The notes under the pieces are model-generated. The model saw only the letters and a program-made list of their open reading frames with translations. It was not told where the DNA came from and ran no database searches. Positions 2,247-54,871 of a stretch of DNA of 64,000 nt are shown in pieces. Every line of letters begins with the position of its first letter. Position 1 is the stretch's first letter. The DNA comes from Diadema setosum (taxonomy: Eukaryota; Echinodermata; Echinoidea; Diadematoida; Diadematidae): positions 6,988,715 through 7,052,714 of the forward strand of contig NC_092701.1 in assembly GCF_964275005.1 (NCBI RefSeq). The letters run 5' to 3'. The position numbers were made by a program, and so were the translations under genes.

Positions 2247-4548
2247 TTCATTTCATTTCATTTCATTTTCATTTCATTTCATTTATTTCATTCCTTCTTT
2301 CTTTTTCGTCAAACATAACACGAAATGAATCAGAAGATATAACATAGGCATGTATTCGACTTTACATGGTAGATAATGGTTAACAAATAGGAAATTATAC
2401 ATGCATACCGGCAGAATACAAAGTTATGTCTGGAGGGGGAAAAAAAGAAAGAACTGAGAGGTTCACTGAAAAGCATGCTTGTAAATTGTGAACCACTCAA
2501 AGGATTCTTGTGAATACATTAAACTTTTTTTTTTCTTTTCTTTTTTTTTTTTTTTTTTACAAAGACAGGAGAGAACAAGACAGGACAGAACAAGACAATA
2601 GAAACACAACGACATTACATGACTTTACAGTAGGGTCTACCATGACAGTAATAAAACACAAAAGAATAATGGAAAGGAAGGAGAGAAAGAAAAAGGAAAT
2701 GAAAGGAAAAGCCAACACGCTGAACATCGGGATCGTAAGAGGGAATTGAGGTGTTTCAGCTCAGTCAGCCGAGCAAAGTGTATACAAATAAGATAATGTT
2801 AAAAATATACAATGATGAAATCAATGATTGACGATGAACCCTTAGGCTGTAAAGACCAGCTAAGTAATGAATCGTATATATCTTAATATGAGTTCAACAA
2901 AAAATATTTTAACTTACGCTTAAACGAATTCAGAGATAAAGAATTTTTTATATCACAACTTAAAGAATTCCAAAATCTAGGGCCAGTGTATATAAATGTA
3001 TTTTGAGCCAATAATGTTCTCAGAAGGGGTAAATGAAACTCATTTGATCGCCTGGTGGGATAATTATGAAAATATTGATTTCGGGGAAACATTGAATCAA
3101 CTAGTTCAGCACTTTCCCTTGATCTTTGACCTTTTGACCTTTGAGGCAAAAACAAAAGAAAAAAAAAAAACTTTCCAGAGAATCTCTATTAGGTTATATA
3201 TGCATACACCAAGTGGAAAAAAAAATAATCCTGCTAGCATTGCATAAACAAGGGGGAAATAGTAAAATTTTGAAGTGTTGCCCTTGACCTTTGACCCCTG
3301 ACCTTTGACCCCATGAACCCTAAATTCTCTAGATAATCACTGCCAGTCAGTACATGTAAATATACTATTTTCCATGAAGATACCTTGAACAATTTCCAAG
3401 GTACAAAGAAAAAAAGGTGAAGTTTTAATGTTTTACTTGACCTTTTGACCTTTGACCTTTGACCTCATGACCCAAACTTTCACCAGAGAATTTTAATCGG
3501 GTAATACATGTATACAGTAAGTTTCAAGAAAATATCTTCAGGCATTGCATAGATATGGTGGAAATAGTGAAATTTTATGTATTTGACCTTGACCTTTTGA
3601 CCTTTGACCTTGAGCATGTGCACCCAAAAGTTGATAGGCACAACCTCACCCCATAATACACATACATGCCAAGTTTCATTAGGATACCTCAAAAGGTTTT
3701 GATAATTACCCTGTCCACAAAACTCATTACGGACGGACGGAAGGACGGAAGGACGGACGGACGGAAGGACGGACGGACGGACGGACGGACAACCCGAAAA
3801 CATAATGCCTCCGGCACCACTTCGTGGCGGAGGCATAGAAATGCTGGGAAGTGCATTTGTGTTATAATTAAACATAAACTGACCCAGCTGTAAGAAAAAC
3901 AAATCTTTGATTTTTTAAATCTTCTAACAAATAATGGATCTGCATGGGAACGTGGAGAAACGCCACAAATAATACGAAGTGGTTTTTTTTTTTTTTTTGT
4001 AATAGCAATAATCTATCTAATAAAGTTTGATGGGCACTATAACCCCGTGCTAAGATATAAGGTAATATTAATGAAAAATACAACGTCAGCAAAGAAGACA
4101 ACGGGATATGAGATTTAAGTCTATTAATAATACCAATATTACGCGAAATTATTTTACAAATATTAATAATATGAGGCTTCCACGAAAGTTTATCGTCCAC
4201 TGTAATACCGAAAAACTTTGTATGAGATACACGCTCTAAGTGAACGTCATCAAAGATGATATCTGTGGGTAAAACTTCTATAGACTTACTGAATAACATA
4301 TAGTTAGTTTTCTGAAGATTCAGTGATAATTTGTTGGCTCTTATCCATTGGGTCACTTTTTTTTAAATTCGGAATTAACAGTGGAGTGATTGGATTTTGG
4401 TGGGAGAAGAAAATATTTGAATCATCGGTAAAAAGTATAAAAGAAAGTATGTCGGATGATCTACAAAAATCATTTATGTAAATGATGAAAGTAAAGGTCC
4501 TAATATACTACCCTGAGGGACGCCACATTTAATAACTTCAAGACTAGA
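2247..4548 (-). mobile_element. CR1/Jockey-group LINE, 3' part, 5'-truncated
   Basis: Minus-strand reading at 4356-3868 shows the late reverse-transcriptase region: NKLSLNLQKTNYMLF, then a DDKLSWKPH block and a PYILARG block. After a gap caused by another insertion, 3080-2883 continues with HNYPTRRSNEFHLPLL and FWNSLSCDIKNS and ends at a stop, the usual C-terminus of CR1/Jockey-type LINEs. The 3' end is a run of ATTTC repeats (2247-2290). The other arm of the inverted repeat preserves the empty site, so the insertion borders are well placed. The endonuclease domain is absent. Clade assignment within CR1/L2/Crack/Jockey is uncertain. Confidence 0.8.
3081..3838. mobile_element. Non-autonomous element with CCTCCGCC hairpin, inserted in the LINE
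   Basis: It splits the LINE reading frame between LPS and FHNYPTRR. At its right end a hairpin (CCTCCGCC/GGCGGAGG around CACGAAGTGG) is followed inward by a GGAC tetranucleotide tract (3723-3790) and then repeated TGACCTTTGACC blocks (3114-3610). The same design recurs at 59668-61020. No coding capacity is evident and its superfamily is unknown to me. Confidence 0.75.
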
Positions 4549-4605
4549 TTCGGATGTACACACTGCATGTTTCATTCTCTTGTAAACAAAAAGAAATGAC
4601 TGTAT

Positions 4606-5785
4606 TTAATGTTTTTTTTTGTTTTGTTTTAAAGAATATTTTATTCTTCATCAATGGAAACATAATATACAAATAAATTGATACAAAAATCTCCGGACCA
4701 ATTTTATAGTCCTTTTCAGCAATGGATGCAACACTGATACCAAAACTTTACATCGGTTTAACATGTTTTGATACACTCTGGTACATTTTTTTCACAATAA
4801 CTATATACAATTCATATAAACATCTCTTCTTTTCTAGTTTTACATTACTAATTCCTCAATCTCTTAACAATTTTTTCTTTCATTACATAATAAATTCTAT
4901 TAACTGAATCACTTACCCCAAAAATATTTCTTTTCAGCTTTCATACAATCCAACCTAAAATTTCAATATCCATTGATTGAAGTTTTTTTGTTAAAAAACA
5001 AAACAAAAACAACCCCCCTCGCCACCCCCTCTACTCAATACCCCCGTCCATTCTCCCTCTTACTACCCCACCCCATCCCCCCTCCCCCTTCCAGAACCCC
5101 CATCACAACAAAACCTCAAAAGCAACTGAAACCTATGTGTCCTGACTTACATTATTAATACGAGTGCGTGGAAAAGGCATTTCTGGTGGATGTGCGGCAG
5201 ACCATACTCTGTTAAATAAACGCAAAGCAAATTCTCAATTCTTTTTCCAGTTTTCCCACTTTTGTAAATGCATTGACAACGTATTACGTATAACTGCTAA
5301 TTTTTCTTCTTCTAACCTATCCTGCTCTATAGACCTTTTAATGAAATATTCCGTTGGGGGTGTCTTATTTTTCCTTCCTAAAAAAAGCAATTTCTTCACC
5401 AAAATTATAACATGGTCAACTGAGCTTTTCCTTTATCTGGTAGCTCTATACCAAAAAGGATCTCTTCCCAACTCAACTGTTGCAAATCAACATATTCAAA
5501 GAAAGTACTACATTTTCCCCAAACTTTCCTAGCAAAATCACATGTATGAAATATATGTTTATACGTCTCTTCCTCATTATGACAAAAAGAACATAAATTA
5601 TCATTTACGAACTTAAACTGAAATAATTGATGATTTGTGTACACTATTCCATGCAATAATCTATATTGGAAATCCCTCAAAGCAGAACTCAAAGTGCTAC
5701 TTCTTATCCTACTAAAAATACATTTTATATCTCTATTAGAAAAATCACAAAAATATAAATTTCTCATTTTTTCTTTCACCGAAGA
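4606..5785 (-). mobile_element. Tx1/L1-type LINE, 3' end, 5'-truncated
   Basis: Minus-strand reading at 5836-5405 gives FQYRLLHGIVYTNHQLF followed by CSFCHNEEETYKHIFHTC, the zinc-knuckle-like zf-RVT region found after the reverse transcriptase in Tx1/L1-group LINEs. A further segment at about 5370-5170 gives the usual C-terminal tail. A T-rich run at about 4608-4632 is the A-rich 3' tail read on the + strand. Only the last ~1.2 kb is present, typical of 5' truncation. The opposite arm of the inverted repeat shows the uninterrupted target. Confidence 0.75.
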
Positions 5786-5849
5786 ATCATCATTTGTAAT
5801 ATCATGATCGATGCAGAAAATTCTTAATAAATTCATTTCAATTTGGATC

Positions 5850-7110
5850 GTGTAATGTCATAACAACCACTATAATATCATCATAACACGTCGACGACAA
5901 ATGTCATAATGGCCATAACACTAATGTCATAACACGTCGACGACAACTATCAAAATCGGATTAACCACAAATGTCATAACACGTCGACGACAAAATTTAA
6001 AATCGAATTAATCACAAAATGTCATAACGCGTCAACCACAAATGTCAAATTTTTAAAACTTACTGCAAATGTCATAACGCGTCATAGGGGAGGATCCAGG
6101 AATTCCGTAAAGGCGGCGCGCTGCCTTTACAAAATCAAAGACTGGCGTGACCCCCCCCCCCCCTTTTCTTCTTTTTATTTCTGTTGTTTTAACAAAATAT
6201 AGAGAGGGGGCACAAGAGAGGGAAGCGCCCCCTCTCGATAATGTCAAAATCGGATTAACCACAAATGTTATAACACCTCGACCAGGGCTCAGTTTTATGA
6301 AGAGTTAAAATTGATTTTATAGTTGATTTCAACGACAAGTCTATGGGAGCCTGTGTGGTAAGGAAATTTAAAATCGATTTTATCTTTTGATAAAACGGGG
6401 CCCAGAAATATCAAAATTTCCAAATCTACTGCAAATGTCATAACGTGTCACAGGGGAAGATCCAGGAATTCCATAAAGGGGAGGCGCCTTATACAAAATC
6501 AAAAGCTGGCGCAACCAGCTTCATTTTATTTCATTTTATTTCTTTTTGTTATAACAAAAATGTATAGAGACGGAGGGGGCGCCGCGCCGCCCCTCTACAA
6601 AAGTACAAGCTGGCGCACCCCCCCCCCTCCCCCGCCCCCATTTTTTTTGTTTTTTTGTTTTTACTTCTGTTGTTTTAACAAAAATAGAAAGGGGCACCAG
6701 AGGGGGATGCGCTCCCTCTCGATTCGCTATTGCATCATCCACAAATGTCAAAACTCATTGCTTGCATTTCAGGGGCGGATCCAGGAATTCCGTAAAGGGG
6801 AGACACCTTTCAAAATAAAAGGCTGGCGCAACCCCATCCCCTTATTTTTTTTTCGTTTTATTTCTTTTGTTTAAAAAAAAAGAAAGAGAAAGAAAATGAA
6901 GGAGGGGTTACTTTTGTAAAGGCGCCTCCCCTTTACGGAAGTCCTGGATCCTCCCCTGTGACGCGTTATGACATTTGCAGTAAATTTGGAAATTTTGACA
7001 TTTGTGGTCGACGTGTTATGACATTTGTGGTTAATCCGATTTTGACATTTGTCGTCGACATGTTATGACATTAGTGGTCATTACGACATTTTGTCGTCGA
7101 CGTGTTATGA
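5850..7110. repeat. Repeated centre of the inverted repeat (GTCATAAC/GTCGAC units)
   Basis: Short units built on ATGTCATAACACGTCGACGA alternate with AAATCGGATTAACCACA. Three longer copies (about 6061-6240, 6430-6600 and 6770-6960) each carry AGGATCCAGGAATTCCGTAA next to a poly-C or C-rich stretch and GGCGCC. The third copy is itself a hairpin around about 6870. The GGGGCGGATCCAGG motif resembles the terminal repeat of some DNA transposons; the superfamily is not assigned. Confidence 0.75.
6286..6411. mobile_element. Small MITE-like hairpin element
   Basis: The left end GGGCTCAGTTTTATGAA mirrors the right end TTGATAAAACGGGGCCC, with AAAATTGATTTTA and AAAATCGATTTTA inside. At about 126 bp it is a compact non-coding fold-back element within the centre of the larger inverted repeat. 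Confidence 0.6.
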
Positions 7111-8032
7111 CATTGCACGATCCAAATTCAAATGAATTTATGAAGAATTTTCTGCATCGATCATGATATTATAAAAATGAAATACAGTCATTTCTTTTTG
7201 TTTACGAGACAATGGAACATGCAGTGTGTACATCCAAATATAAAACTGAGATATACGTGTACAGATTAAAGAAAAGACTAAGAGAACACATCGATTGGGA
7301 ACCACTCGGAATAAAGAAAATCAAATGATCTGACTGAATTATGGCACATGTATTGGGAGTGTAAATTCAGAAGACTGTCGTCAAATAAGCATATAGCTGC
7401 GACAACCACATTAGTGGTTGTTATGACATTAGTGGTCGATTATTGTTGACATTAGTGAGCTCTAACATGGTGACAGCATATTTTGAAGAAAATCATACAA
7501 TGATATTGTGAATTCACCTAATTCCCTCAGCTTTTGAGCATCTGACTTGAAATTTGGCACATGTGACAGCTATAGTTTTGCAAACTTCATTTTTTCTTAA
7601 TGTCAAACATTGTGTTGCCATGGTAATATTATTTTCATGAAAATCATAGAAATTGCTGATTTGTTTACTTTACTCACTCAGGTTTTGAGCACTTGACTTG
7701 AGATATGGCACATTATTGTGAGTGAGCAAAATAACACATTACTGTACTGTTAATTTCATTCAATGTTGAACAATACATTGTCATGGTATTTTTTTTTTCC
7801 CAGGAAAAGCATACTTGCAGTAATCATTGCTAGTTGAGCTAACTGCCTCAGTGTCTAGTTGGGGGTATTATTAATCACATTAGGTGATACTTCTAGTTTG
7901 TATTGCAGTACTTCTTGGATATTGGAGGATCAGATTACATCTGTACCTTCATGAAAAAAAAAGTGCTTGAATATAAAGAAGTGCATAAAGTGCATAATGA
8001 CTTCATGCAATAGTGGTGTAATTTTCCTTCAT

Positions 8033-8492
8033 ACATGTGACTGTACATGTTTCTAGACAAACTGATCAATGTATATAGAAAGTAAGTGGTCTTGTAAACA
8101 AACATTGTAAAGTTTAAGAATCAGAAAGAGAGAATGGGAGAGACAGAGAGAGTATGAGAAACAAATAAATTGTATGATATATATATAGGCTAATTCAAGC
8201 AGTGATCGAGGAAGGAATGTACGAGTCATGCATTTGAAAAAGGAGGGGGTCCGAGAGAGGTCGGGAAATGAATATCGGCAGAGTGAGTCTTTCAAACTAG
8301 TATGAAGAAAAGAGGGACAGGTTTGAGAAACAAAATAATATACCATCAGTATGAAGATAGATTTGGGGGCCTTTAATAGCAACAGATATAACAGGGGGTT
8401 GGGGTCTGAGAAATAAAGTTAATACATGCACATACAATAGAGGGGGTCTTAGAAACAGAAATCATGTGATATGAGAGGGAGTCAAGAGAGAT
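8033..8492. repeat. Perfectly identical tract of the inverted repeat, right member
   Basis: This is the partner of 1030-1489. Identity stops abruptly on both sides: a C/T difference at the outer side and an indel-rich stretch at the inner side. Confidence 0.9.
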
Positions 8493-9061
8493 AGAGAGAG
8501 CTTGTATTTGGAACAAATACTATGATGTATGGAGAGACGGGAGAAGAGAGACGTTTTGGAAATAAGAGGGTGAGGGGGGTCTGAAAGACAAATACAGTAC
8601 TTTTGATACAATGTATTAATTTTAAAATGAGAAAAATGGCAAGCATGAATTTTCAATGCATTTCATTCCCTTCAGGTGTCATTAGATTATGCGATCATGC
8701 TATTTCAGAACTCTCTGATACATGTACATGCACATGTACCAGCCTATTCCATAACTTTCAAATTTTTTGTTTTGTATTGTCTTGTTTTTCGCACTCTCAC
8801 TCGTTTACATAGTACAATGTACGTACATGGACTTGTTGGATGCAGGTCTATACCACGGCAAGCAAAACTTTCACAGCGCGTACAAACACTCACTGATGCA
8901 CGTGTACGAATCGAATCGGCGCGAGCGGAAGGCACTGTACAAGTAAAAGTAACCCACAGAACTCTTCGTACCCGAGCGGAGTAAGCATAGACGCATCACA
9001 AGCGGTTTCATTGAATTAAATTGCGAAAAGCCACAGGCTTGCGTGTAAATAAAAAATACGC

Positions 9062-19079: not shown

Positions 19080-19920
19080 AACATTCCAGTCCCCCATCCC
19101 ACATAGCATGAATAACCTTGAAGAATAACCCTCCATCATCAAACATGCCCACAGCTTCTACGTGCAGAGAAGCAGCCTCACAAACAACCTATCTCAGGCA
19201 TCCGTCTATTACATCCCTATAATTTCTGTGAAATCTTTGCCTGATACTTTGGTTGAACCAACACCTCCCCCTAAGAATCATCCTGGATCTGTGTTAACCA
19301 GCTGCCAGAGCATGCAGTCCTACAACGTCCGGAAGCCAAAACGGTGTCACTCTTCGCATCCTCAACTACTTCGCCTTCACCCTTTATGATGATGCAGTCC
19401 TTAGCAAGAGAAGACTATGACTCAGACAATCATGACGATAAGGAAGCAGAATAAAGACCAGAAATCAAGGAAGTGCAAAGAGGATACCACATTTCTTTCA
19501 ATTACACAGAGACACATCATCAATTACTTCTCACATGGTAAACTGATAAGAGAAACTGACACATCACTCTAGTCCCCCATCCCACACAGCATTAATGGTT
19601 CCAAAGAACAACGCTCCACCATCAAACAAGCTAACAACTTCTATTGAGTACTGCAGTACTCGTACAAACAACCTATCTCAGCATCCATCTACGACATCCC
19701 TGCAATTACTATGAAATCTTCACCTAACACTTTGGTTGAACCAACACTTCCTCCAAAATCATGCAGACTTACGACGTTTGGAAGCCCAATGGTGTCTGTC
19801 ACTGCATCCCAAACTCCCACACCTTCATCCCCAGGCAGACAGGAAAACCTAATTCTATGATGATGCAGTCCTTCGCTAGGAAAGATGAATTAAGACTTAG
19901 ATGATCATTACGCTAAGGAA
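19080..19920 (+). repeat. Tandem duplication leading into the transposon array
   Basis: About 19080-19450 and 19566-19915 share an ordered series of words: CCCCCATCCCACA, ACAACCTATCTCA, CATCC, TTTGGTTGAACCAACAC, ATGATGATGCAGTCCTT. They form a direct repeat of about 490-bp period with roughly 80 percent similarity by eye. The second member runs directly into the transposase-like block beginning GAAGCTGTAATCAGG, so it is probably part of that element's 5' portion. Confidence 0.6.
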
Positions 19921-21660
19921 GCTGTAATCAGGTATTGCTCAATTCAGCCATCATATTTTACATTATGGACTGACTGGCCTGTCAAGGTCTTTCATGATTT
20001 ATGCCAATTCGACATCATTTACCTAAATGGTACAGAGGGGGAAGTGAAAACATGGTACATCCGTACTGCAGAAAGATCAAGTCAGGGGGAACACTACAAT
20101 ATAAACCCCCTCGAAGAGAATTTTTGGACAGACTTTCACGCTTAACCGAACAAGAATTTGAAAGTGGTGTATGCGACAATGCCCCTAGTAAGACAATTTT
20201 ACAGAAAATTGGATCTGAATATCGTGAGTCATTACACCCTGCAAACTCTGAAGGACAAGGTTTAATTGAGATAATAAAAAAAAAAGAAGCTTCTTCTGAA
20301 GGTCTTCCGAAGGGAAAGGAAAGCTGTAATCAGGTATTGCTCAATTCAGCCATCATATTTGACGTTATGGACTGACTGGCCTGTCAAGGTCTTTCAAGAT
20401 TTATGCCAATTTGACATCATTTACCTATAAATGGTACAGAGGGGGAAGTGAAAGCATGGTATATCCGTAATGCAGACAGATTGAGTCGGGGAACGCTACA
20501 ATATAAACCCCCTCAAAGAGAATTTTTGGACAGACTTTCACGCTTAACCGAAGGAGAATTTGAAAGTGGTGTACGTGACAATGCCCCTAGTAAGACAATT
20601 TTACAGAAAATTCGATCTGAATATCGTGAGTCATTACGCCCTGCAAACTCTAAAGTACAAGGTTTAATCGACATAATAAAAAAAGAAACTGTAATTAGGT
20701 ATTGCTCAATTCAGCCATCATATTTGATGTTATGGACTGACTAGTCTGTAAAGGTATTTCAAGATTAGTGCGAAGCCATCAGATTTCGGCTTAGCAACAA
20801 TTCATGAACATTGTATGTGCAAGTCATTTAATGAAACGAGCATCACATGTATGCTCAGCAAAATACAGAAAGGACAAGATTGGAATGTTTTGGATCTGGG
20901 GACTTTTACGATGCCAAAATCTTCATCAGCTGACTTAAAGTAATAAAATCCATTGCTGTCAAAACTCTCAGTAAGAATGAGTCATTGAACTGCAATGTTA
21001 CACGTAAAGTTGTGATTAACTCTGAGGAAAATCTTTTAGCACAGATACACTTCCAAGGTTGCCAATGTCACTCAAAGGTGGAAGTGAACTGCAATCTCCT
21101 TTTATGTCACTGTTTGAAAAATGCTTCAGAGAAGTTGATCAATACAATGATCTTTGCATCGACAGTGAGCAGTCATGTCCTAAACCGAACCATTACTACA
21201 ATCCGTCATTTTTAGAGTCGCTGAAAAACCAGTTTCATGTTACAATTCACTTATGGTCACCTATCAGGAAAGGCCCGCCGTGAAATCCTTGGAAGAGGGG
21301 AGGATGTGAAGATGTGTCCCGAAGATCAAGTCAGGGGGAACGCCACAATATAAAACCCCCTCGAAGAGAATTTTTAGACAGACTCTCACGCTTAACCGAA
21401 CAAGAATTTGAAGGTGGTGTATGTGACAATGCCCCTAGTAAGACAATTTTAGAGAAAATTGGATCTGAATATTGTGAGTCATTACACCCTGCAAAATTTG
21501 AAGTACAAGGTTTAATTGAGATAATAAAAAAGAAGCATTATCCGAAGGGAAATAAGAAGCTGTAATCAGGTATCGGTCAATTCAGCCATCATATTTGATG
21601 GTATGGACTGACTGGTCTGTCAAGGTCTTTCATGATTTATGTAAATATGACATCATTTAC
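19920..21660 (+). mobile_element. Three partial copies of a transposase-like element
   Basis: Copies of one block lie at about 20094-20345, 20488-20745 and 21320-21610. Each reads REFLDRLSRLTEQEFESG, a lysine/serine stretch ending QGLIEIIKK, then VIRYCSIQPSYLM and LWTDWPVKVF. A downstream block at about 20770-20940 reads KPSDFGLATIHEH-like and ends SKSSSAD. A C-terminal block at about 21060-21285 reads PFMSLFEKCFREVDQYND and ends HLWSPI. The order suggests one ancestral protein of a DNA transposon, related by eye to MULE/NOF-like transposases. Each copy is internally deleted or frame-broken, so none is active. Confidence 0.6.
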
Positions 21661-21759
21661 CTAGATGCCTACAAATTTTGCGTTTTCTCTTTTTTAAGCT
21701 TACAATCTTTACTTTGTTAGATTGGCAGCTTTAGGCTCGGTAAACAATGTTCGGTCCCG

Positions 21760-22435
21760 ATCCCACGTAGTCTCGATATTTCATACCCGTTTCGTGCTAC
21801 TCCAGTGCATGCATGCATGCAGCAGTGACGTGCAGGCACAACATACACATACAGCGAGTGCCTATGTACAGCATCGTCACTGAGCTGGCACACTGTACAA
21901 CCAGTCGCGCATCACACGCTGTTCACGCCATTCAAGCTTGAGGTTTGTTTCACAGTTACACTTTTGTATTGTTTATTCGGGCCATATACATTGTTTTCGT
22001 AATTTCGTAATTCTTCACCGATGGCTGGACCGATGCCATATAACTTCGAACCGCAATATTCTGCAGCAGAGATGGAAGCCCGAATTCAGCATAGATCTAC
22101 AACAAGTAACGTTAGTAGTAGTAGTACGTCAAGCGTTGACAGGGATGATGACCCGCCTGCACCGCCAGCACCTGTCCCTCTTCCGGATCGCATGAACGGA
22201 AACTGGTGGTGCCACTGTGAACATTGCATTCCGCTGGATTCCCCATAGCAGTGCCGTTGCTGCCATGAAGAGGAGAGTTGTCGTCCGCTGATCAATGAAG
22301 AAAAGTGTAAATGTATAACACTTCACAAGGACTTCCCAAAGGTCTGTCTGGTTCCCGCAGTTCTCAGAGCCACACTTATAGCGCGTGGGGACATCAGAGG
22401 ACACGACAGAAGAGGTGTTTAATGTGGAAACACAA
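21760..22435 (+). pseudogene. P2X7 C-terminal-like cysteine-rich domain, copy 1
   Basis: From ATG 22021 the frame reads PYNFEPQYSAAEMEAR, a serine/aspartate/proline linker, then NWWCHCEHCIPLDS, CCHEEESC, CKC, LHKDFPKVCL and LRATLIARGDIRG. The spacing of W, C, H and the late FPKVCL motif matches the zinc-binding cytoplasmic ballast domain at the C-terminus of P2X7 receptors (P2RX7_C family), which in invertebrates also occurs in many stand-alone proteins. No P2X channel domain is present. A TAG at 22246-22248 interrupts the domain where copy 2 has TTG. About 260 bp of upstream sequence is not shared with copy 2. It runs on into transposon sequence (FNVETPKTYKE) at about 22420. Confidence 0.7.
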
Positions 22436-22680
22436 AAAAACATACAAGGAACGCTGCCCCAGAATACTAACTGGTAGTGTGAAGCCATCAGATTTCGGCT
22501 TAGCAACAATTCATGTACACTGTATGTGCAAGTCATTTAATGAAACGAACATCACACATATGCTTTGCAAATTACAGAAAGAACTACAAGATTGGGATGT
22601 TTTGGATCGGGGAAGTTTTACCATGTCAAAATCATCATCAGCTGACTAAAGTAAGAAAGTCAATTGATGTCATAACTCTC
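22420..22680 (+). mobile_element. Transposase-like element, post-core block
   Basis: Reads VETPKTYKERCPRILTGS, KPSDFGLATIHVHCMCKS, then QDWDVLDRGSFTMSKSS and a stop. The same block follows the P2X7-like domain in copy 2 (28820-28990) and appears alone at 20770-20940, 25285-25470 and 26940-27120. Confidence 0.55.
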
Positions 22681-22779
22681 AGTTGAATGAGTCACAATGG
22701 CAGCGGCGGAGTAAGCTCGCGTGTGAAGGAGCCAGTGGAAATTTCTGAAAATGAGACCTCATTTTAAGGGTTTTTTAAC

Positions 22780-23060
22780 ATGAAAGGGAAAGGAGCCAAG
22801 CCCAAGACAAAACTTAATCCAAAAAGCTGTACAGGTGACTCTCCTGCCAGAAAGAATGAGTCAGACAATGTAATATATCACTATTGCAAATTCCAGACAT
22901 TCTTGGTAAACCTGTGGATAACGAACGATTTATTGCTCATGAAGATTTTATATGCACATGATACCTCTGAGAAAGATCAATGTCAAGTTGGAGGAGAAAA
23001 ATCTGTCGACCCAGCAGGCGGTTCCAACACCGACAGGCCCAGCCTTCACCCAGGTTAGGG
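22780..23060 (+). mobile_element. Short unplaced segment, transposon-related
   Basis: Contains TGTGGATAACGAAC, GCTCATGAAGAT and CACATGATACCTCTGAGAAAG, words repeated at about 24410-24480 and 27205-27270, so it belongs to the C-terminal side of the repeated transposase-like element. The preceding 22690-22780 holds nothing I recognise. Confidence 0.45.
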
Positions 23061-23915
23061 GGTCCCTATCTTCAGTGGAAGAGAGTTGAAAATAGGCATC
23101 GATGACTGGATAAGGGACCTGGAGTACTTCTTCTCTGCAAGCCGTACCCCGCCCTCTCTTCAATTCTCTACAATCGTAAGGAATCTCAGTGGAGAGGCCC
23201 GCCGTCTGGTGTTGAACCTGGCCTACCAGACTCCAAAAGCGGCCTTCAACGAGCTGAGGGTGGAATATGGAGACGCCGCTACAGATGATCCGTTCGCCGC
23301 TTTCTACGAGCGGATGCAGAGGTCCAGTCCCTCTTCACGCGCATAGCCGATGACTATCTGCAGGCCATCCATGATGGGCAAGGGGACTGCATCCTCGTGA
23401 ACCAGTTTATGCGTGGCTTGAGGGACGAGGAGCTCCGACCTTGGCTTGCCCCCATGAGACCCCGCACCACGTTATTCCAGGCCTCCGCAAGGAAGTTAGG
23501 AGGTTCATCCGAGAGCAACAAGGGAAGACACGTCTTCCCGCTGCAAGCTACATCCACACTTCCACCACTCCTGATCACACTGAGGACACCAAGGCCAGAC
23601 TACTCCAGATCAGTAAGACATCAGAAGGCACATTGACCTTGCTGAAAGATGTGATGGCTACACAAAGGAGGACCACAAAGAGGGTGGCTGCAATTGAGGG
23701 GAGACTTGAGGCGCTGGATCTGGCGTCGAGCAGCCCCAAGGGGTCTGTTGGCCAACGCCAGGAGTGCTTAGAGCGCGGCCACCCAGGACACTGGAAGTCG
23801 AACTGTCCCAACAAACCGCCTCCCAACTCCCACGACGTCTCCAGCGGACGGTTGGATACTATCCAGCAGACCCAGAATTTCAACTGGACAACAACAAAAC
23901 CACTCCCAACATAAT
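23055..23915 (+). mobile_element. Fossil LTR-retrotransposon gag fragment (Ty3-like)
   Basis: Reads DDWIRDLEYFFSA near the start, then NLSGEARRLVLNL, FMRGLRDEELRPWLAP, and a C-terminal zinc-knuckle-like ERGHPGHWKSNCP. This order fits a Ty3/gypsy-type gag. It is broken, with a few breaks, and has no LTRs or pol attached. It is embedded in the transposon array and looks old. Base composition is more GC-rich than its surroundings, suggesting a separate origin. Confidence 0.7.
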
Positions 23916-23959
23916 TTTCCCGTTATTGGCCCCAGTAACTTGGAAACTGAAACAATTAA

Positions 23960-24320
23960 TGAAATATCATGAGATTTTTTGGACAGACTTTCACGCTTAA
24001 CCAAACAAGAATTTGAAAGTGGTGTATGTGACAATGCCTCTAGTAAGACGCTTTTTTCAGAAAATTGAATCTGAATATTGTGAGTCATTACGCCCTGCAA
24101 ACTCTGAAGTACAAGGATTAATTGAGATAATAATAAAAAAAAGAAGCTTCTTCCCAAGGGAACAGACAGCTGTAATCAGGTATTGCTCAATTCAGCCATC
24201 ATAATTGATGTTATGGACTGACTGGCCTATAAAGATCTTTCAAGATTTATGCCAATTTGACATCATTTACCTAGATGCCTGCAGAATCTGTAATTTCTAA
24301 AAGAAGTCATATTTTACTAA
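23960..24320 (+). mobile_element. Transposase-like element, fourth partial copy
   Basis: Starts abruptly within the EFLDRLSRL block (23970) directly after the fossil gag fragment and continues to the QGLIEII, VIRYCSIQPS and DIIYLDACR blocks. It shares its sequence with 20094-20430. Confidence 0.6.
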
Positions 24321-24790
24321 AGTAATAAAATCAATTGTTGCCACTGATCTCAGTAAGAATGAGTCAGACAAAGTAATATATCACTAAAGCAAATTGCAGA
24401 CATTTTTGGTAAACCTGTGGATAACGAACCATTTAATTGCTCATGAAGATGTAAATTCACATGAAACCTCTGAGAAGGAACATGTACAGTGTAAGTTGGA
24501 AGAGAATCAGGTTTTCACATAATGTAAATGATCTGCAATCTCCCTTTATATAATTGTTTGAAAAATGCGTCAGAAGTCCATCATTGACATTTGCATTGAC
24601 AGTAAGCAGTCATGTCCTAAACCAAACCGTTACTACAGTCTACAGAACTTGACGTCATACATCGGCAAAGTTGTTGCAGCGAAGATTTCTGATGAAGTGC
24701 GACATGACAATAAAAAATGCAAGCAACGTCCAGTCGGGCTTATGTAGACTTGATATGCACCTATACAATACATGCAGAGTGTATTAGGCC
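24320..24790 (+). mobile_element. Transposase-like element, C-terminal side
   Basis: Holds CACATGAAACCTCTGAGAAG, ATCTGCAATCTCCCTTTAT and GTAAGCAGTCATGTCCTAAA, the words seen at 21060-21200 and 27200-27400. After about 24650 the sequence leaves the family. Confidence 0.5.
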
Positions 24791-24794
24791 GAAT

Positions 24795-25280
24795 TCTTTG
24801 GAGCTACTGTGATCCATACATTCAATTTCTTCTGCTCTCCTGGGGTCTGGTGTTCCAGAGGATACAAGATGGCGGACGACGCTAAGAGTTTGAAGCACCG
24901 ATGCAGAGGAGCCAAGGCTAAATTCACACGTCTTGGTAATGCTCTGGACTTCATGCTGTCAGAGAACCGTCCTGTTTGTGAAGTTTCAGAGGCTTTCAAG
25001 AGTTACAACGAAGCCTACGCAAGTCTTCAGTCACAGCATGAGGCTTACACACAGATGATAGAGGATGATGCAGAGTTCGAAGCCGAAGAGAAATGGATCG
25101 AGGATTGTCAGAAGGCATTTCTCAAGCTTCAGATTAAGGAGAAGGATTACTGTCAGAAAGAGGCAGAGCATGCTACCACACAAGTCAATGAGGGTAGCAA
25201 TGTTAGAGAGACATCGCATGCTGCAAGCAATGATGTTCAAGAGAGTCCATCCCCATGGAACGCTGCTTCACAATTCTAAC
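24795..25280 (+). mobile_element. Fossil gag N-terminal fragment (BEL/Pao-like)
   Basis: An open frame from 24809 reads MADDAKSLKHRCRGAKAKF, TRLGNALDFMLSENRP, then coiled-coil-like EAYTQMIEDDAEFEAEEKW and FLKLQIKEKDYCQ. This pattern is typical of the N-terminus of BEL/Pao-type gag proteins of marine invertebrates. The rest of the element is missing and the frame runs into transposon sequence. It is a broken fossil. Confidence 0.6.
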
Positions 25281-26500
25281 TGGTAGTGTGAAACTATCAG
25301 ATTTCGGCTCGGTAACAATTGAAGAACATTGTATGTGGAAGTCATTTTAAATGAAACGAGCATCACATGTATGCTCAGCAAAATACAGAAAGAACGACAA
25401 GATTGGAATGTTTTGGATCGGGGGACTTTTACGATGCCAAAATCTTCATCACCTGACTAAAGTAATAAAATCCATTGCTGTCATAACTCTAAGAATGAGT
25501 AATTCAACTCCAGTGTTACATGTAAAGTAGTGATTTACTCTGAGGAAAATCTTTTAGCTCAGATTCACTTCCACGGTTGCCCATGTCACTCAAAGGCCGA
25601 AGTGAAAGCACAGTACATCCATAATGCAGACAGATCAAGTCGTGGGGAACGCAAAAATGTATACCCCCTCGAAGAGAATTTTTGGACAGACTTTCACGCT
25701 TATAAACTGGACATGAATTTGAAAGTGGTGTACGTGACAATGCCCCTATGAAGACGATTTTGCAGAAAATTGAATCTGAATATTGAGAGTCATTATGCCC
25801 TGCAAACTCTGAAGTACAAGGTCTAATTGAGATAATAAAAAAAGAAGCATTTTCTGAGTTATAAACTTAAACTCAAGAAGTAAATATACTCTGAAAGACA
25901 ATTCCAGTCTACGGAGAATATGTTTCTCTTGCGTCTTCTTATGCATATTTGGACTTGGTACCTCTATATATATTAATCAATGAACATACCGATCCCAAGT
26001 AGCTAAACGCCGCTACACAACAATAATAAAAAAAGAAGGTTTTTCCGAAGGGAAAGGAAAGCTGTAATTCGGTATTGCTCAATTCAGCCATCATATTTGA
26101 TGTTATGGACTGCCTGGCCTGTAAAGATCTTTCAAGATTTATGCCAATTTGACATCATTTATCTAGATGGTACAGGATCAGTAATTTATAAAAGAAGTCA
26201 TTTTTTACTGCAGGGATCAGTAATTTATAAAAGAAGTCATTTTTTACTGCAGGGACAATATCTCCCTCACAATATTGATGTAAGGCATCCTGTGAAAGCG
26301 AAAACCCCACTTGCTTTGGCGACATTAGTTAGTAGTCGCCAAACCGCTCCAATAATCTTGTTATTTTTATTGTCATTTCATCATGACAAAGCCAAAATGT
26401 ATGGCTACAATAACACAAAAATACTGTCTCAAATTATTATAGACGGGAGCAGAGCGTTATGTCTTGCTGTATTACAGGTGTTTTAATGTGGAAACACCAA
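25280..26500 (+). mobile_element. Transposase-like element, fifth copy with the best core
   Basis: Blocks in order: KPSDFG-type block (25285-25470), FHGCPCHSKAEVKAQYIHNA (25558-25625), EENFWTDFHA/REFLDRL block (25660-25850), VIRYCSIQPSYLM (26068-26100), then FDIIYLDGTGSV, RHPVKAKTPLALATLVSS, FHHDKAKMYGYNNTK and IIIDGSRALCLAVL (26150-26480). The last part resembles the D...D region of MULE/NOF-type transposases. A 39-bp tandem duplication (GSVIYKRSHFLLQ twice) lies at about 26170-26255. An unrelated stretch at about 25855-26030 interrupts it. Confidence 0.6.
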
Positions 26501-26533
26501 AAATATACACAACATGGTGTAATATAGCTGTAT

Positions 26534-26893
26534 GTGTGTAGCTACATAAAAATGCTTACTGGAAGAAATGAGTCTAACAATTCGTCATCGTGCAAAAACT
26601 GTGGCATGCAGCACTCATCGAGGGACTCGTGCCCGGCCCGTGGCTACCACTGCAAGCATTGCCAAAAACTTAATCATTTCGCAATCGTGTGCCGCTCACG
26701 CCTTGCAGACAAGCCACCGGTAACAACTCGCGAGATTGGCGCAAGTAGCCGTCATAGCCATCGTAGCCGTCATCGAGATGGATCTCGCAACCACCATAAT
26801 CGCGATGGTGACAAGCCCCATTACGGACGGTCTTCCCAGTCTTCTCGAAGGGATCATCGCTCCTCCCAGGCCTCACGAAGCATCTTTATGTAG
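26534..26893 (+). mobile_element. Fossil gag zinc-knuckle fragment
   Basis: An open frame reads SCKNCGMQHSSRDSCPARG and CKHCQKLNHFAIVCRSR, two cysteine-rich knuckles in the arrangement of retrotransposon gag/nucleocapsid proteins, followed by an arginine/serine/histidine-rich tail. Flanking words (TACATATAGCTGTATGTGTG-like, with a mirrored counterpart after the stop) suggest it is bounded by short inverted sequence. It is an isolated fossil piece. Confidence 0.6.
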
Positions 26894-26934
26894 CTATACA
26901 CATACAGCTATATTACATATGGAACTCTGCTTCA

Positions 26935-27400
26935 GGATGCTAACTGAAAGTGCGAAGCCATAAGATTTTGGCCTAGCAACAATTCATGTATGTGCAAGTC
27001 ATTAAAATGAAACAAACATCACATGTATCCTCAGCAAAATACAGAAAGAATGACAAGATTGGAATTTTTGGATCGGGGACTTTTACGATGCCAAAATCTT
27101 CATCAGCTGACTAAAGTAATAAATCAATTGCTGTCATAACTCTCAGTAAGAATAAGTCATATAACATATTATATCACTATAGCAACTTGCAGACATTCTT
27201 GAGTAAACCTGTGGATAATGAACCATCAACTGCTCATGAAGATGTAAATGCACATGAAACCTCTGAGAAAGATCAACATGAAGTTGGAGGGAAATCATTG
27301 TTTTCACATAATGTAGATGATCTGCAATCTCCCTTTATGTCATTGTTTGAAAAACGCTTCATTGAAGTCGATCATTGACATTTGCATTGACAGTGAGCAG
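26935..27400 (+). mobile_element. Transposase-like element, C-terminal blocks
   Basis: Reads the KIL-/TIH-type block (26950-27120), then EDVNAHETSEKDQHEVGG, LFSHNVDDLQSPFMSLFEK and IEVDH, and stops. It aligns with 21060-21200 and 24410-24620. Confidence 0.5.
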
Positions 27401-27419
27401 ACGGAGACCATTACTACAG

Positions 27420-27640
27420 TCCACCATTTTTCGAGTCGTTGAAAATACAGTTTCATGTAATACAATTCACTTATGGTCACCTATCAGGAAAGGCCCGCCA
27501 TGAAATCCTTGGTAGAGGGGAGGACGTGAAGATATGTCCCGATACAATCTTTGCAGTGTTGTCCAAGGCCTTTGGGGGACATAAGCTCAGAAGAGAATGG
27601 GTCAATGTGTTTTCTTAGGGAATTAAATTTATCGATCCTC
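27420..27640 (+). mobile_element. Gag-like fossil fragment
   Basis: One frame gives HLSGKARHEILGRGED, then ICPDTIFAVLSKAFGGHKL, which resembles the central gag region of Ty3-like elements. The first half (27470-27545) also occurs at 21240-21310. It is short and broken, so the family call is tentative. Confidence 0.4.
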
Positions 27641-27739
27641 TGTATTGTACACAGTTTAATTTCCTCAAAGTGAGATAAATCAGGAATTTTTCAGTTAGAG
27701 CAAGTTATTTTATTGCAAAGGATATTGTAACTTCACAGA

Positions 27740-28375
27740 CTGCAGTGTTACATGTAAAAGTAGAGTTTAACTCTGAGGAAAGTCTTTTAGCTCAGATACA
27801 CTTCCAAGGTTGCCCATTTCACTCAAAGGCCGAAGTGAAAGCACAATACATCCATACTGCAGGAAGACCAAGTCAAAAGGAACGCTACAATATAAACCTG
27901 CTCGAGGAGAATTTTTGGACAGACCTTCACGCTTAACCAAACAAGAATTTGAAGGTGGTGTACGTGACAATGCCCCTAGTAAGACAATTTTGCAGAAAAA
28001 TGAATCTGAATATTGTGAGTCATTACGCGCTGCAAACTCTGAAGTACAAGGTTTAACCGAGATAATAAAAGAAGGAAGCATTTTCTGAAGGGAAAGAAGA
28101 AGTTGTAATCAGGTATACTGACTGGTCTGTCAAGGTCATTTGCAATATATGCCAATTTGACATCATTTAAATAGGTGCTACAGGATAGTGATTTCTAAAA
28201 GAAGTCATTTTTTTTACTTGAGGGACAATATCTCCTTCACAATATTGTTGTAAGGCATCCTGTGAAAGGGAAAACCCAACTTGCTTTAGTGACATTAGTT
28301 AATAGTCACCAGACTGCTCCAATAATCTCATTCTTTCTATCGTCATTGTCATGACAAAGCCAAAATGGACAGCTA
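27740..28375 (+). mobile_element. Transposase-like element, sixth copy
   Basis: Blocks in order: SEESLLAQIHFQGCPFHSKA (27765-27830), REFLDR/EENFWTDLHA block (27895-28080), a shortened VIRY/LWTD part (28100-28170), then the RHPVKGKTQLALVTLV part (28250-28330) and HDKAKMDSY, after which P2X7-like sequence starts at about 28375. Confidence 0.6.
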
Positions 28376-28822
28376 CATATATACATTGTTTTTGGAATTC
28401 CGTAATCCTTCACTGACGGCTGGACCGACGCCATATAACTTCAAACCACAGTATTCTGCAGCAGAGATGGAAGCCCGAATTCAGCATAGATCTACAATGA
28501 GTATAATGATAGTAGTAGCAGTACGTCAAGCGTTGACAGGGATGATGACCCGCCAGCGCCGCCAGCGCCTGTCCCTCCTCCAAATCGCATGAACGGAAAC
28601 TGGTGGTGCCACTGTGAACATTGCATTCCGCTGGATTCCCCATTGCAGTGCCGTTGCTGCCATGAAGAGGAGAGTTGTCGTCTGCCGATGAATGAAGAGA
28701 AGTGTAAATGTATGACACTTCACAAGGACTTCCCAAAGGTCTGTCTTGTTCCTGCAGTGCTCAGAGCCACAGTTATAGTGTGTGGGGACATCAGAGGACA
28801 CGACAGAAGAGGCGTTTAATGT
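28375..28822 (+). pseudogene. P2X7 C-terminal-like cysteine-rich domain, copy 2
   Basis: From about 28400 it matches copy 1 (PYNFKPQYSAAEMEAR), but the codon equivalent to its ATG is ACG (28416-28418) and the serine-rich linker is shifted out of frame. The cysteine-rich part is fully open from 28589: NWWCHCEHCIPLDSPLQC, CCHEEESCRLPM, KCKCMTLHKDFPKVCL. It sits inside the transposase-like element: the upstream side ends in HDKAKMDSY and the downstream side resumes at FNVETPKTYKECC, so about 25 residues of the transposase core are replaced. The downstream junction is the same as in copy 1. Confidence 0.7.
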
Positions 28823-29400
28823 GGAAACACCGAAAACATACAAGGAATGCTGCCCCAGAATACTAACTGATAGTATGAAGCCATCAGATTTCAGCTTAGC
28901 AACAATTCATGTACACTGTATGTGCAAGTCATCTAATGAAACGAACATCACATGTATGCTTTGCGAAATACAGAAAGAACTTTTAGCTCAGATATACTTC
29001 AAAGGTTGCCCATGTCACTCAAAGGTGGAAGTAAAAGCACAGTACATACATAACGCAGAGAGATGCAAGAGATGCAAAGAGAATTTTTGGACAGACTTTC
29101 ATGCTTAACCAAACAAGAATTTGAAAGTGGTGTACGTGACAATGTCCCTCGTAAGACGATTTTGCAGAAAATTGGATCTGAATTTCGTAAGTCATTACGC
29201 CCTGCAAACTCTGAAGAACAAGGATTAATTGAGGTAATAAAAAAAAAAAGCTTCTTCTGAAGGGAAAGAAGAAGCTGCAATCAAGTATTGATCAATTCAG
29301 CCATCATATTTAATGCTATGGACAGACTGGTCTGTCAAGGTCTTTCAAGATTTATGCCAATTTGACATCATTTACCTAGATCCCTACAGGATCTGTAATT
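28820..29400 (+). mobile_element. Transposase-like element, seventh copy
   Basis: Reads ETPKTYKECCPRILTDS and KPSDFSLATIHVHCMCKS, jumps to LLAQIYFKGCPCHSKVEVKA, then the EFLDRLSCLTKQEFESG block and IEVIKK, then the VIRY-like and DIIYLDPYR blocks. This is a compact, internally rearranged copy. Confidence 0.6.
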
Positions 29401-30030
29401 TAAGATTTATGATGGTTTCCCCACAAGAATTGGCTTGATGAGACTGTGAGACATAATCCCCGTAGAGTTAGACTGCCTCCAATAAGATTTAGGAAGGATG
29501 ACGAGTAGATGTCTAACCAGATCACATTTGTTTTCTTTCTACCCACCTGACTGCTTCACAGATGAAGTGCCGTTTCTGCCCATCCTACTATTACATGTGG
29601 GAGGTGTATCGCCAACATCTCAATAATCACCATAAGACCACCATAACAGGCAGATGTAGGATCTGTGGGAGAGAGGTCGAAAATCAGCGGGCACTCGATC
29701 TCCACCACGGAACGCATCATCCCCATCGACGCCTGCCCACTATCCAGTATCGTGTTGCAAACAAGACCTATCGTAAAAACTGGCTTAAGAATAGGTCACG
29801 GATCGAGGTGAGGGGCGAACGGAAATCAAAGAAGAAGAGAGAGGGAACAAGGACAGGAGTGGGAAGAATCAACAGAATAAGGAGACATCATTCACCTAGA
29901 TGCCTACAGGATCTGTCATTTAAGATTTATGATGGTTTCCCCCGCAAGAATTCGCTTGATGAGACAGTGAGACGCAATCCCCATAGAGTTAGACTGCCTC
30001 CACTAAGATTTAGGAAGGATGATGAGTAGA
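29400..30030 (+). CDS. C2H2 zinc-finger exon, copy 1 (uncharacterised)
   Basis: A TTTTGTTTTCTTTC tract and CTTCACAG (ending 29561) precede ATG 29562, so this looks like the start of an exon. The frame encodes two C2H2 fingers: C3-C6-H19-H23/24 and C32-C35-H48-H52/53 (residue numbers from that Met), then a basic tail rich in KKKRE and RTGVGR. It ends KDDE-stop at 30029 after FKIYDGFPRKNSLDETVRRN, a segment that also occurs upstream at 29400-29505. Fingers plus a basic region suggest nucleic-acid binding, but I recognise no named family. It may be a gene embedded in, or carried by, the surrounding mobile DNA. Confidence 0.5.
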
Positions 30031-30082
30031 TGATTAACCAGATCATATTTGTTTTGTTTCCACCCACCTGACTGCTTCACAG

Positions 30083-30846
30083 ATGAAGTGCCGTTTCTAC
30101 CCATCCCACTATAACACGTGGGAAGTATACCGCCAACATCTCAATAATCACCATGAGACCACCATAACAGGCAGATGTAGGATCTGTGGGAGAGAGGTCG
30201 AGAATCAGCGGGCACTCGATCTCCACCATGGAACGCATCATCCCCGTCGACGCCTGCCCACTATCCAGTATGGAATCGCAAGTGAAACCTATCGTCGAAA
30301 TTGGCTAAAGAATAGGTCACGGATCGAAGTGAGGGGCGAACGGGAATCAAAGAAGAAGAGAGAGAGAGAGAGAACAAGAACAACAGGAGTGGGAAGTATC
30401 GACAGAGTAAGGAGGAAAGGAGAGACAAGGAAGAGAAGGAGGGCAAGGAGACGCAAGACGAGCAGAAGGAGGAAAAAGAGCTAAGCGAGGGAAGTGAAGA
30501 AAAAGTACCAACAATTGAGGTAGAAGATAAAGGTGAGTGGGAGGAGATCTTCAGTGATAGCACTAGCAGTGATTGAAGTGACGGGGAGGGCGACAACTCT
30601 AAGAGCAGCAACCCCAGTGATGACGAGGGCAGCGGCAATAATGACGACGACTCTGACGGCCACTTCAATGATGACAAGGGCAGCAACTCTAGTGATGATG
30701 AGGGCAGCGGCAATAATGACGACTCTGACAGCGACTCCAATGATGACAAGGGCAGCAGCAATAATGATGATGACTCTGACAGCAACCCCAGTAATGACGA
30801 GAGTAACGACTCCAAGGGTGAATGGAAGCTTGAATTTTTACCCTGA
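30083..30846 (+). pseudogene. C2H2 zinc-finger exon, copy 2, with acidic repeat tail
   Basis: This is a tandem copy of 29562-29880 at about 90 percent. Finger 1 has lost its second cysteine (CRFYP against CRFCP); finger 2 is intact. An expanded GAGAGA run (30358-30372) is a likely slippage site. After the basic tail ends at 30484, a different frame (30479-30846) encodes an acidic region of repeated DDEGSGNNDDDSD and NDDKGSSN units with one internal stop, ending GEWKLEFLP-stop. A basic-then-acidic protein shifted by slippage explains the two frames. Confidence 0.5.
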
Positions 30847-30849
30847 CTG

Positions 30850-31285
30850 ACATTTCTGATGATGATCTTGACTCTGTACGTCTTTGATGTCTTGATGCTA
30901 CATTTGTGATCTGATTTCTTACAGTCTGAGGCTAAGTTAGAGCAATCGTAAGTCTAAATTCTTTTTTAAGTCCCTAATTGTTGCTAGCATTTTAGAACTT
31001 ATAAACTGAGATATGATAATATAAACAAATACTTAGAAAATATTTGTGATGGTCTTCCTAGTTAGGGAAATTGGAAACAATCAATTTCACTGAGAAGATG
31101 GATGGCGAATTTAGGGTTTCTTTCCTTTCGACTAAGGAGAAAATAAACTCTGCTTCTTTATAGAGTAGGGACAAGTATGGTGTGCCAATTGTTCGTGAAT
31201 ATTTCCTTACATGCTCACAGTCTCTTACTAGTTTTGGGAAAATATATTAAGAGAGGTTGTAGTTTTCTTTGTTAAACAGAGAGAT
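30850..31285. other. No gene recognised
   Basis: This stretch between the zinc-finger pair and the next transposon copy shows no domain or clear repeat. Confidence 0.35.
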
Positions 31286-32040
31286 GGCGGACAAGGTTCA
31301 ATTGAGATGATGAAAAAAAGGAGCTTCTTCCGAAGGGAAAGAAGAAGCTGTAATAAGGTATTTCTCAATTCAGCCATCATATTTGATGTCATGGACTGAC
31401 TGGCTTCTAAAGGTCTTTCAAGATTTAGGCCAATTCGACATCATTTACCTAGATGCCTACAGGATCCGTAATTTCTAAAAGAAGTCATTTTTTACTTGAG
31501 GGACAATATCTTCTTTACAATACTGTTACATAAAGCCATCCTGTGTAAGGGAAAACCCAACTTGCTTTACGGCATCTGAAGGTCTTTCAAGATTTATGCC
31601 AATTCGACATTATTTACCTACTAGTAGATGCCTACAGGATCTGTAATTTCTAAAAGAAGTCATTTTTTTTTTACTTGAGGGACAATATCTTCCTTACAAT
31701 ACTGTTGTATAAAGCCATCCTGTGTAAGGGAAAACCCAACTTGCTTTACCGACATTAGTTAGTAGTGGCCAAACCACTCCAATAATCTTGTTCTCTTTAT
31801 TGTCATTTTGTCACAACAAAGCCAAATGTATGGCTACAATAATAGAAAAACACAGAAAAATACCGTCTCAAATTACAATAGCGGGAGCAGAATGTTATCA
31901 CTTCTCGCTATATTATATGCGTATAATGTGGAAACACCAAAAACACATGGAACGCTGCTTCAGAATACCAACTGGTAGCGGAAAGACATCCCTGGAGACT
32001 GAAAACTTTGAAGATTGAAGCACAAAGATGAAATGAATGT
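31285..32040 (+). mobile_element. Transposase-like element, last copy, with internal duplication
   Basis: Contains FRREREEAVIRYFSIQPSY-like sequence, then the FDIIYLDAYRIRNF block and VRKNPTCFT-type block twice (31420-31565 and 31580-31750). This is followed by the KCMATIIEKHRKIPSQITIA region and a block near 31930 resembling NVETPKTHGTLL. The duplicated 160-bp segment implies unequal exchange within the element. Confidence 0.55.
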
Positions 32041-49500: not shown

Positions 49501-49537
49501 CTCTGTCTCCCTGCCAGATCGCCATACAGCAGGCACT

Positions 49538-54850: not shown

Positions 54851-54871
54851 TTCTCCTAGATATGTTGAGCA

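Follow-up and report, generated by a model that had tools for sequence, protein, structure and literature searches.

Two truncated P2X7 ballast-type fragments in a transposase array of Diadema setosum: probable relics of a local duplication and not a mobile carrier

The window analysed here is a stretch of 64,000 nucleotides from the sea urchin Diadema setosum (G000:C17:6988715-7052714, within a 912.7 Mb assembly of 102 contigs, which are given below as C-numbers). Within it are two short cysteine-rich pieces resembling the C-terminal or ballast domain of the receptor P2X7 (P2X7-C), and both lie among sequences that resemble the gene of a DNA transposase. In a first-pass annotation of this DNA they had been read as a domain captured, carried and copied by a transposon. 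The question that the locus raises is whether a mobile element has indeed spread the domain from here. It is probable that the two copies are instead dead relics of one local accident, in which part of a P2X7-C gene was illegitimately joined to a decaying array of transposase fragments, with local duplication following.

The identity of the pieces was examined using profile searches and using relatives present in the same genome. In the profile search proposed in the first-pass annotation, copy 2 matched Pfam PF20478 (P2RX7_C) with an E-value of 0.0021 and 18.4 bits, under the curated cut-off of 23.5, and no match to P2RX7_C was obtained with the open pieces of copy 1. With the protein of copy 2 as query, its own genome yielded 20 matches at E <=1, 12 of them (the two window copies included) at E <=0.001, and the best relatives outside the window were located at C8:3530285 (46%, E 4e-12) and C10:13962059 (47%, E 1e-11). 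Copy 2 was aligned with ten genome copies hand-picked from the fetched loci, six found with the copy 2 query and four with PF20478 (alignment A1). Ten of the 11 aligned sequences match PF20478. Residues W39, C40, C45, C56 and C57 are invariant among them, C42 and C74 are nearly invariant, and copy 2 possesses the zinc-coordinating cysteine motif of the P2RX7_C or ballast domain. The profile of A1 matches solved P2X7 chains with an E-value of 7e-11, a match to which the four members found with PF20478 contribute; copy 2 alone (phmmer) gave one chance match to solved structures, at E 7.2. As the genome relatives match, the members of A1 match PF20478 and the A1 profile matches P2X7 chains, the likeness is not a chance one, and these comparisons confirm the pieces to be of the P2X7 ballast type, as had been annotated.

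Each piece represents the initial, cysteine-rich portion of a stand-alone P2X7-C protein. Copy 1, translated from its ATG as MAGPMPYNFEPQYSAAEMEARI...WWCHCEHCIPLDSP*QCRCCHEEESC...CKCITLHKDFPKVCLVPAVLRATLIARGDIRGHDRRGV* (stops as asterisks), has the N-terminus of such a protein followed by the cysteine motif, and is broken by an in-frame TAG (Table 1). Copy 2 has lost its start codon (ATG to ACG) and has a 2-nt indel which shifts the frame; its predicted structure has a mean predicted local distance difference test score (pLDDT) of 45. The C-terminal half of the domain (about positions 140-191 of the profile) is lacking in both copies, which switch to transposase sequence after GHDRR. With a stop codon in one, and a lost start and a frameshift in the other, both pieces are, as read from their sequence, dead and truncated.

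The copies can be aligned across 604 nt at 92% identity. Downstream they pass into the transposase at an identical base (AGAGG[TC]GTTTAATGTGGAAACAC), so the shared junction that had been noticed earlier is real. The transposase sequence G[TC]GTTTAATGTGGAAACAC has two further occurrences in the window that are free of P2X7-C, one at about 26479 and a more diverged one at 31.9 kb, and an intact gene found elsewhere in the genome reads unbroken through the joint position (LQAFNVETPKTYMERC). The upstream joint reported for copy 2 lies at about 28368-28380, inside the transposase core, and copy 1 was found to have one also, at about 21673-21677, from which some 300 bp, perhaps the 5' flank of the source gene, lead to the P2X7-C fragment. 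No TTAA occurs at the break of the left joints, and no inverted repeats were found either flanking the P2X7-C pieces (at least 40 nt) or within 150 nt of the joints (at least 10 nt). Roughly two codons beyond the joint the P2X7-C frame is closed by a TAA; as it is also read in a different register from the transposase, the present sequence allows no fusion protein. Between the copies, the P2X7-C part is 91.9% identical and the downstream transposase part 92.8%; the equal divergence of the two parts agrees with a single joining followed by duplication of the joined piece, the order of one fusion and then copying suggested by the annotation.

The transposase-like element in which the copies had been placed is a mosaic of fragments and not one transposon. 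These fragments were placed against R, the joined C22 sequence carrying an intact relative (L029, L031 and L032), and all align to R 3734-5229, inside an uninterrupted open reading frame (ORF) of 1700 aa at R 2407-7506. When 366 residues of its core were searched against the genome, 56 matches came up, the first three of which were identical to the query and each in a 1700-aa open frame (Table 1). Domains were tested in the C22 copy, where their order is a PHD finger (PF00628, 24.4 bits, cut-off 24), a core without Pfam match, UCH and Ulp1. The core has spaced D, D and CxxH residues. This is a pattern typical of MULE, P, hAT and Kolobok relatives. A C/DxxH motif is described in the background of PMC9587614. 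A Pfam search of the transposase core gave no match, NCBIfam gave only one weak, unrelated match, and 159 matches at E <=1 to a DDE-core query were judged to be due to chance, the best 60 of the 159 all being myoglobins with a best E-value of 0.002. More distant relatives, with 29-33% identity, are contained in ORFs of 2027, 2609 and 2259 aa.

The nearest description found for the array gene is that of the Rehavkus elements, MULE-related transposons having a PHD finger and a 3' minisatellite (PMC6446971). The C22 copy has both, with 15-bp repeats in 13 and 17 copies, in opposite orientation, located 3' of its ORF. Unlike Rehavkus it also has UCH and Ulp1 domains, its DDE-like core is without a Pfam match, and its ends, where the terminal inverted repeats and 9-bp target duplication of a Rehavkus-like transposon would be looked for, are unseen in the flanks covered. 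Outside a 16-kb middle, the C22 and C18 units are 99.3% and 99.7% identical across the 4.5 kb on either side; since they are still alike at the outer edges of these flanks the ends of the unit were not reached, and within the fetched flanks no clear inverted ends were found. It is possible that the C22, C18 and C17 units represent a giant Rehavkus-like transposon, the alternative being a segmental duplication. No paper describing a combination of Kolobok, PHD and Ulp1 was found in a thin search of the open-access literature. Downstream of its intact gene the C22 unit likewise carries an array of transposase fragments, and the C18 and C17 units have fragments at comparable distances, which indicates that the array habit belongs to this sequence family and needs no captured gene.

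Occurrence of the junction at one locus only had been named beforehand, in the first-pass annotation, as the outcome that would speak against mobilisation. A search of the whole assembly for a 27-nt pattern of the junction, allowing up to 3 mismatches, found it twice, each time in the window; the backward control of the pattern gave no match. A DNA query of 761 nt over both joints gave 24 matches in the genome; its transposase parts also matched the three intact units, and among the 24 listed matches there was none outside the window to the P2X7-C part. The approximately 300 bp upstream of copy 1 likewise gave no match elsewhere in the genome. In this DNA search very common words are passed over, and scoring is confined to the best candidates. 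The three transposase gene copies (C22, C18 and C17:15.72 Mb) are continuous at the position of the joint and without the domain. A junction at a single locus and three intact, domain-free copies of the gene contradict the claim that this transposon mobilised the domain, and on these comparisons the locus would be a locally duplicated dead fragment and not a mobile carrier.

The P2X7-C domain is nevertheless probably transposon-borne in this genome, the carrier being a Kolobok-type family; the evidence available does not point to the window's element as a carrier. A genome search with PF20478 gave 59 matches, and the regions around 20 of these were fetched. Twelve of the 20 belong to one dispersed repeat family (nine at about 98-99% identity and three at about 80-95%); the other eight do not. 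Ends in three copies (C13, C16 and C6) give the family a length of 13.1-13.7 kb. At nine of the 12 loci the right end is GACGGGCT followed by TTAA, the sequence directly before the TTAA being ..AGTGCAGACGGGCT, and at all three loci examined on the left the end is TTAA followed by AG(T/C)GCGTCTGCACT. Compared by eye, the two ends are alike at 13-14 of 16 positions. The TTAA duplication and the AG..CT ends agree with the TTAA target-site duplication and 5'-RR..YY-3' termini given for Kolobok elements (PMC9587614). The P2RX7_C frame has an internal stop in many of the listed copies. The family may be non-autonomous, as a search of the C13 copy for a Kolobok-type DDD/E transposase showed no open frame of more than 150 aa. 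In two more pairs of P2RX7_C loci (L016/L017 and L020/L021) the members lie on different contigs and share more than 99% identity over almost all of the 10 kb fetched; this identity between contigs places them in recent duplicates or mobile units.

That the domain travels on DNA transposons is already in print. Kojima and Bao (2022) report that KolX, a protein of the Kol0 lineage of Kolobok, has the ballast fold, and conclude that P2X7 is a fusion of a P2X4-like gene with KolX (PMC9587614). This was the only paper found in the open-access literature searched that combined the terms P2X7, ballast and transposon. The suggestion of the first-pass annotation, that a transposon carrying a receptor domain could have given rise to the stand-alone P2X7-C proteins of invertebrates, agrees with this work in its general idea but has the direction reversed, the tail of P2X7 being derived there from KolX. 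Rump et al. (2020) describe the ballast domain in stand-alone proteins across Metazoa, with few copies per species (PMC7016195), and the stem 'transpos' is absent from the main text of that article. The window pieces resemble the ZCD or NANOR-like ballast proteins and the P2X7 C-terminus described there in their conserved cysteines (WCxC..C..CC) and in having the N-terminal part of the ballast fold; they differ in being without the C-terminal part, with its conserved Arg/Tyr residues, and without a channel.

From the anatomy of the two pieces, their shared joint and its restriction to this locus in the assembly, the broken frames and the domain-free transposase copies, we infer the following mechanism and order of events. 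A fragment of a stand-alone P2X7-C gene, comprising its 5' flank and first coding stretch and cut before the C-terminal half, would have been joined by illegitimate recombination to a transposase gene fragment within a broken, repetitive array. The source of the fragment may have been a host gene or a Kolobok KolX gene. A single copying event within the array would then have placed a second piece of approximately 600 bp with the joint 6.4 kb away, after which both would have decayed. For the array itself, we envisage that one stretch of a MULE-like transposase gene was duplicated locally again and again, other insertions being collected along the way; the presence of several unrelated insertions in it is counted in favour of a local accident.

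Some observations weigh against this explanation. Across 96 gapless codons, a comparison that leaves out the frameshifted 5' part and is uncorrected for transition bias, the copies show differences at 9 of the 61.7 synonymous sites and at 10 of the 226.3 non-synonymous ones. The surplus of synonymous differences may reflect divergence that in part took place under constraint, in functional copies; with 19 differences this is not decisive. A TTAA, which the intact gene has as well, is found 4 nt away from each of the right joints; about 5% of positions in the array have a TTAA at a distance of <=5 nt. As TTAA is the Kolobok target, a role for Kolobok insertion is conceivable, and its nearness to the shared joint weakly favours arrival of the piece with a Kolobok element. 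Furthermore, since the genome DNA search is not exhaustive, the absence of the piece elsewhere is not absolute; the pattern search does support it.

It is possible, but rather doubtful, that a KolX gene, from a Kolobok-type transposon that landed in the array, left the P2X7-C piece behind as its remnant. A transposon other than the one named in the first-pass annotation would then have brought it, an origin which would be compatible with a later local duplication. KolX is reported to have the ballast fold and, like the protein represented in the window, is a stand-alone protein with a P2X7 ballast-type cysteine motif tied to DNA transposons (PMC9587614); the genome contains a TTAA-flanked Kolobok-type family carrying P2RX7_C, the fragment starts with the N-terminus of a stand-alone protein, and the chance of the TTAA lying so near to the joint is about 5%. 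However, when window positions 14001-36000 were compared to the 20 fetched P2RX7_C regions there was no DNA match except to an unrelated repeat, and the 300 bp upstream of copy 1 are unmatched elsewhere. The left joints have no TTAA at the break, the joints are without inverted repeats of at least 10 nt, and the right joint leads straight into transposase. The window pieces are also unlike KolX in being truncated and dead, and in lying amid the remains of a transposase without a demonstrated link to Kolobok, with no recognised Kolobok ends. A slim chance is given to a related history, in which a ballast-domain gene (possibly KolX) passed from Kolobok into a MULE-related element, a member of another superfamily, the window then holding the only surviving, dead copies of a chimera that was once mobile or expressed. 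Identification of the array transposase itself as a Kolobok, with P2X7-C as its own KolX, was considered and set aside, there being no Pfam match to its core and no PF20478 hit at the three intact loci among the 59 matches.

A retrocopy of a chimeric transcript, with a P2X7-C exon spliced to a cryptic acceptor in the transposase sequence, is very unlikely. The joint in copy 1 is AG/GTGTTTAATG and the copy free of P2X7-C reads CTTGCTGTATTACAG/GTG, which is acceptor-like; this reading was ranked low because in the relatives L035 and L036 the reading stretch is longer by about 10 codons and ends at a plausible donor following ..NK (the presumed end of the exon), which places the break inside the exon. 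Pack-MULE-type elements capture gene fragments, and the locus resembles such a capture in having a host-like gene fragment joined to MULE-like sequence, while differing from it in that the fragment is without surrounding element ends and no dispersed copies were found in the assembly. The view that the transposase element captured the domain and spread it as a mobile unit could draw on two copies with one common joint and on the acquisition of host gene fragments known for MULEs (PMC6446971), but with the joint at a single locus and lacking from three intact relatives, with frames broken in both copies and no inverted repeats flanking the pieces, it is highly improbable. Duplication of a locally joined fragment remains the preferred explanation.

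The coordinates of the array, its fragments and insertions, and of the related loci are collected in Table 1. The dispersed repeat piece inserted in the array looks like the start of a long terminal repeat (LTR) element, and its first ~110 bp recur approximately 4-13 kb away at the five other places. Joined to the transposase array that holds the P2X7-C pieces is a tandem pair (29364-30414), 89.6% identical, with weak C2H2-like zinc finger matches below cut-off. Elsewhere in the window, positions 785-2188 and 7356-8728 are inverted copies with 91% identity across 1415 bp, and there are two genes of the mitochondrial carrier family (PF00153), at 49385-50353 (322 aa) and 54869-55687 (272 aa), each a single open frame.

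Table 1. Features of the transposase array in the window (positions numbered from its first letter) and related loci elsewhere in the genome.
Feature	Position	Strand	Remarks
Mosaic array of degraded transposase-like gene fragments	19915..31983	+	All from one stretch, R 3734-5229
Transposase fragment upstream of copy 1	21322..21672	+	Aligned to R 4008-4358
Extra sequence upstream of copy 1	21677..21983	+	Unmatched elsewhere in genome
P2X7-C (ballast-type) fragment, copy 1	21984..22415	+	ATG 22021, in-frame TAG 22246-22248; ends +/- few bases
Transposase fragment directly 3' of copy 1 (shared junction)	22416..22683	+	R 4626-4884
Insertion, gag-like piece	23000..23814	+	Assigned by reading, its zf-CCHC match falling short of the cut-off; 79-80% identity to three places elsewhere
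Insertion, dispersed LTR-element-like repeat piece	24709..25254	+	95-96% identical at five other places
Transposase core fragment continuous across junction position, without P2X7-C piece	26213..26507	+	R 4359-4654
Insertion, stretch between 40-nt inverted repeats	26518..26917	+	Repeats 95% complementary
Transposase core fragment upstream of copy 2, broken at P2X7-C start	28117..28367	+	R 4294-4545
P2X7-C fragment, copy 2	28379..28812	+	Open frame 28490-28816; ends +/- few bases
Transposase fragment directly 3' of copy 2 (same junction)	28813..28981	+	
Intact gene copies	C22:6897500-6910499; C18:1313041; C17:15720769 (-)		Identical across the 366 residues searched
Members of the dispersed P2RX7_C family	L009-L015, L023-L027; left flanks L039-L041		

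The large dispersed unit with its 1700-aa PHD/DDE-like/UCH/Ulp1 protein may merit more attention than the P2X7-C finding from which this work began. With regard to the domain itself, one claim is settled negatively and the idea behind it redirected: the ballast domain would ride on a Kolobok-type repeat, as was argued in general terms in 2022 (PMC9587614), and not on the element in the window. As the copies of this TTAA-flanked family are 98-99% alike, the transposon origin of the P2X7 tail would be testable in a living species.

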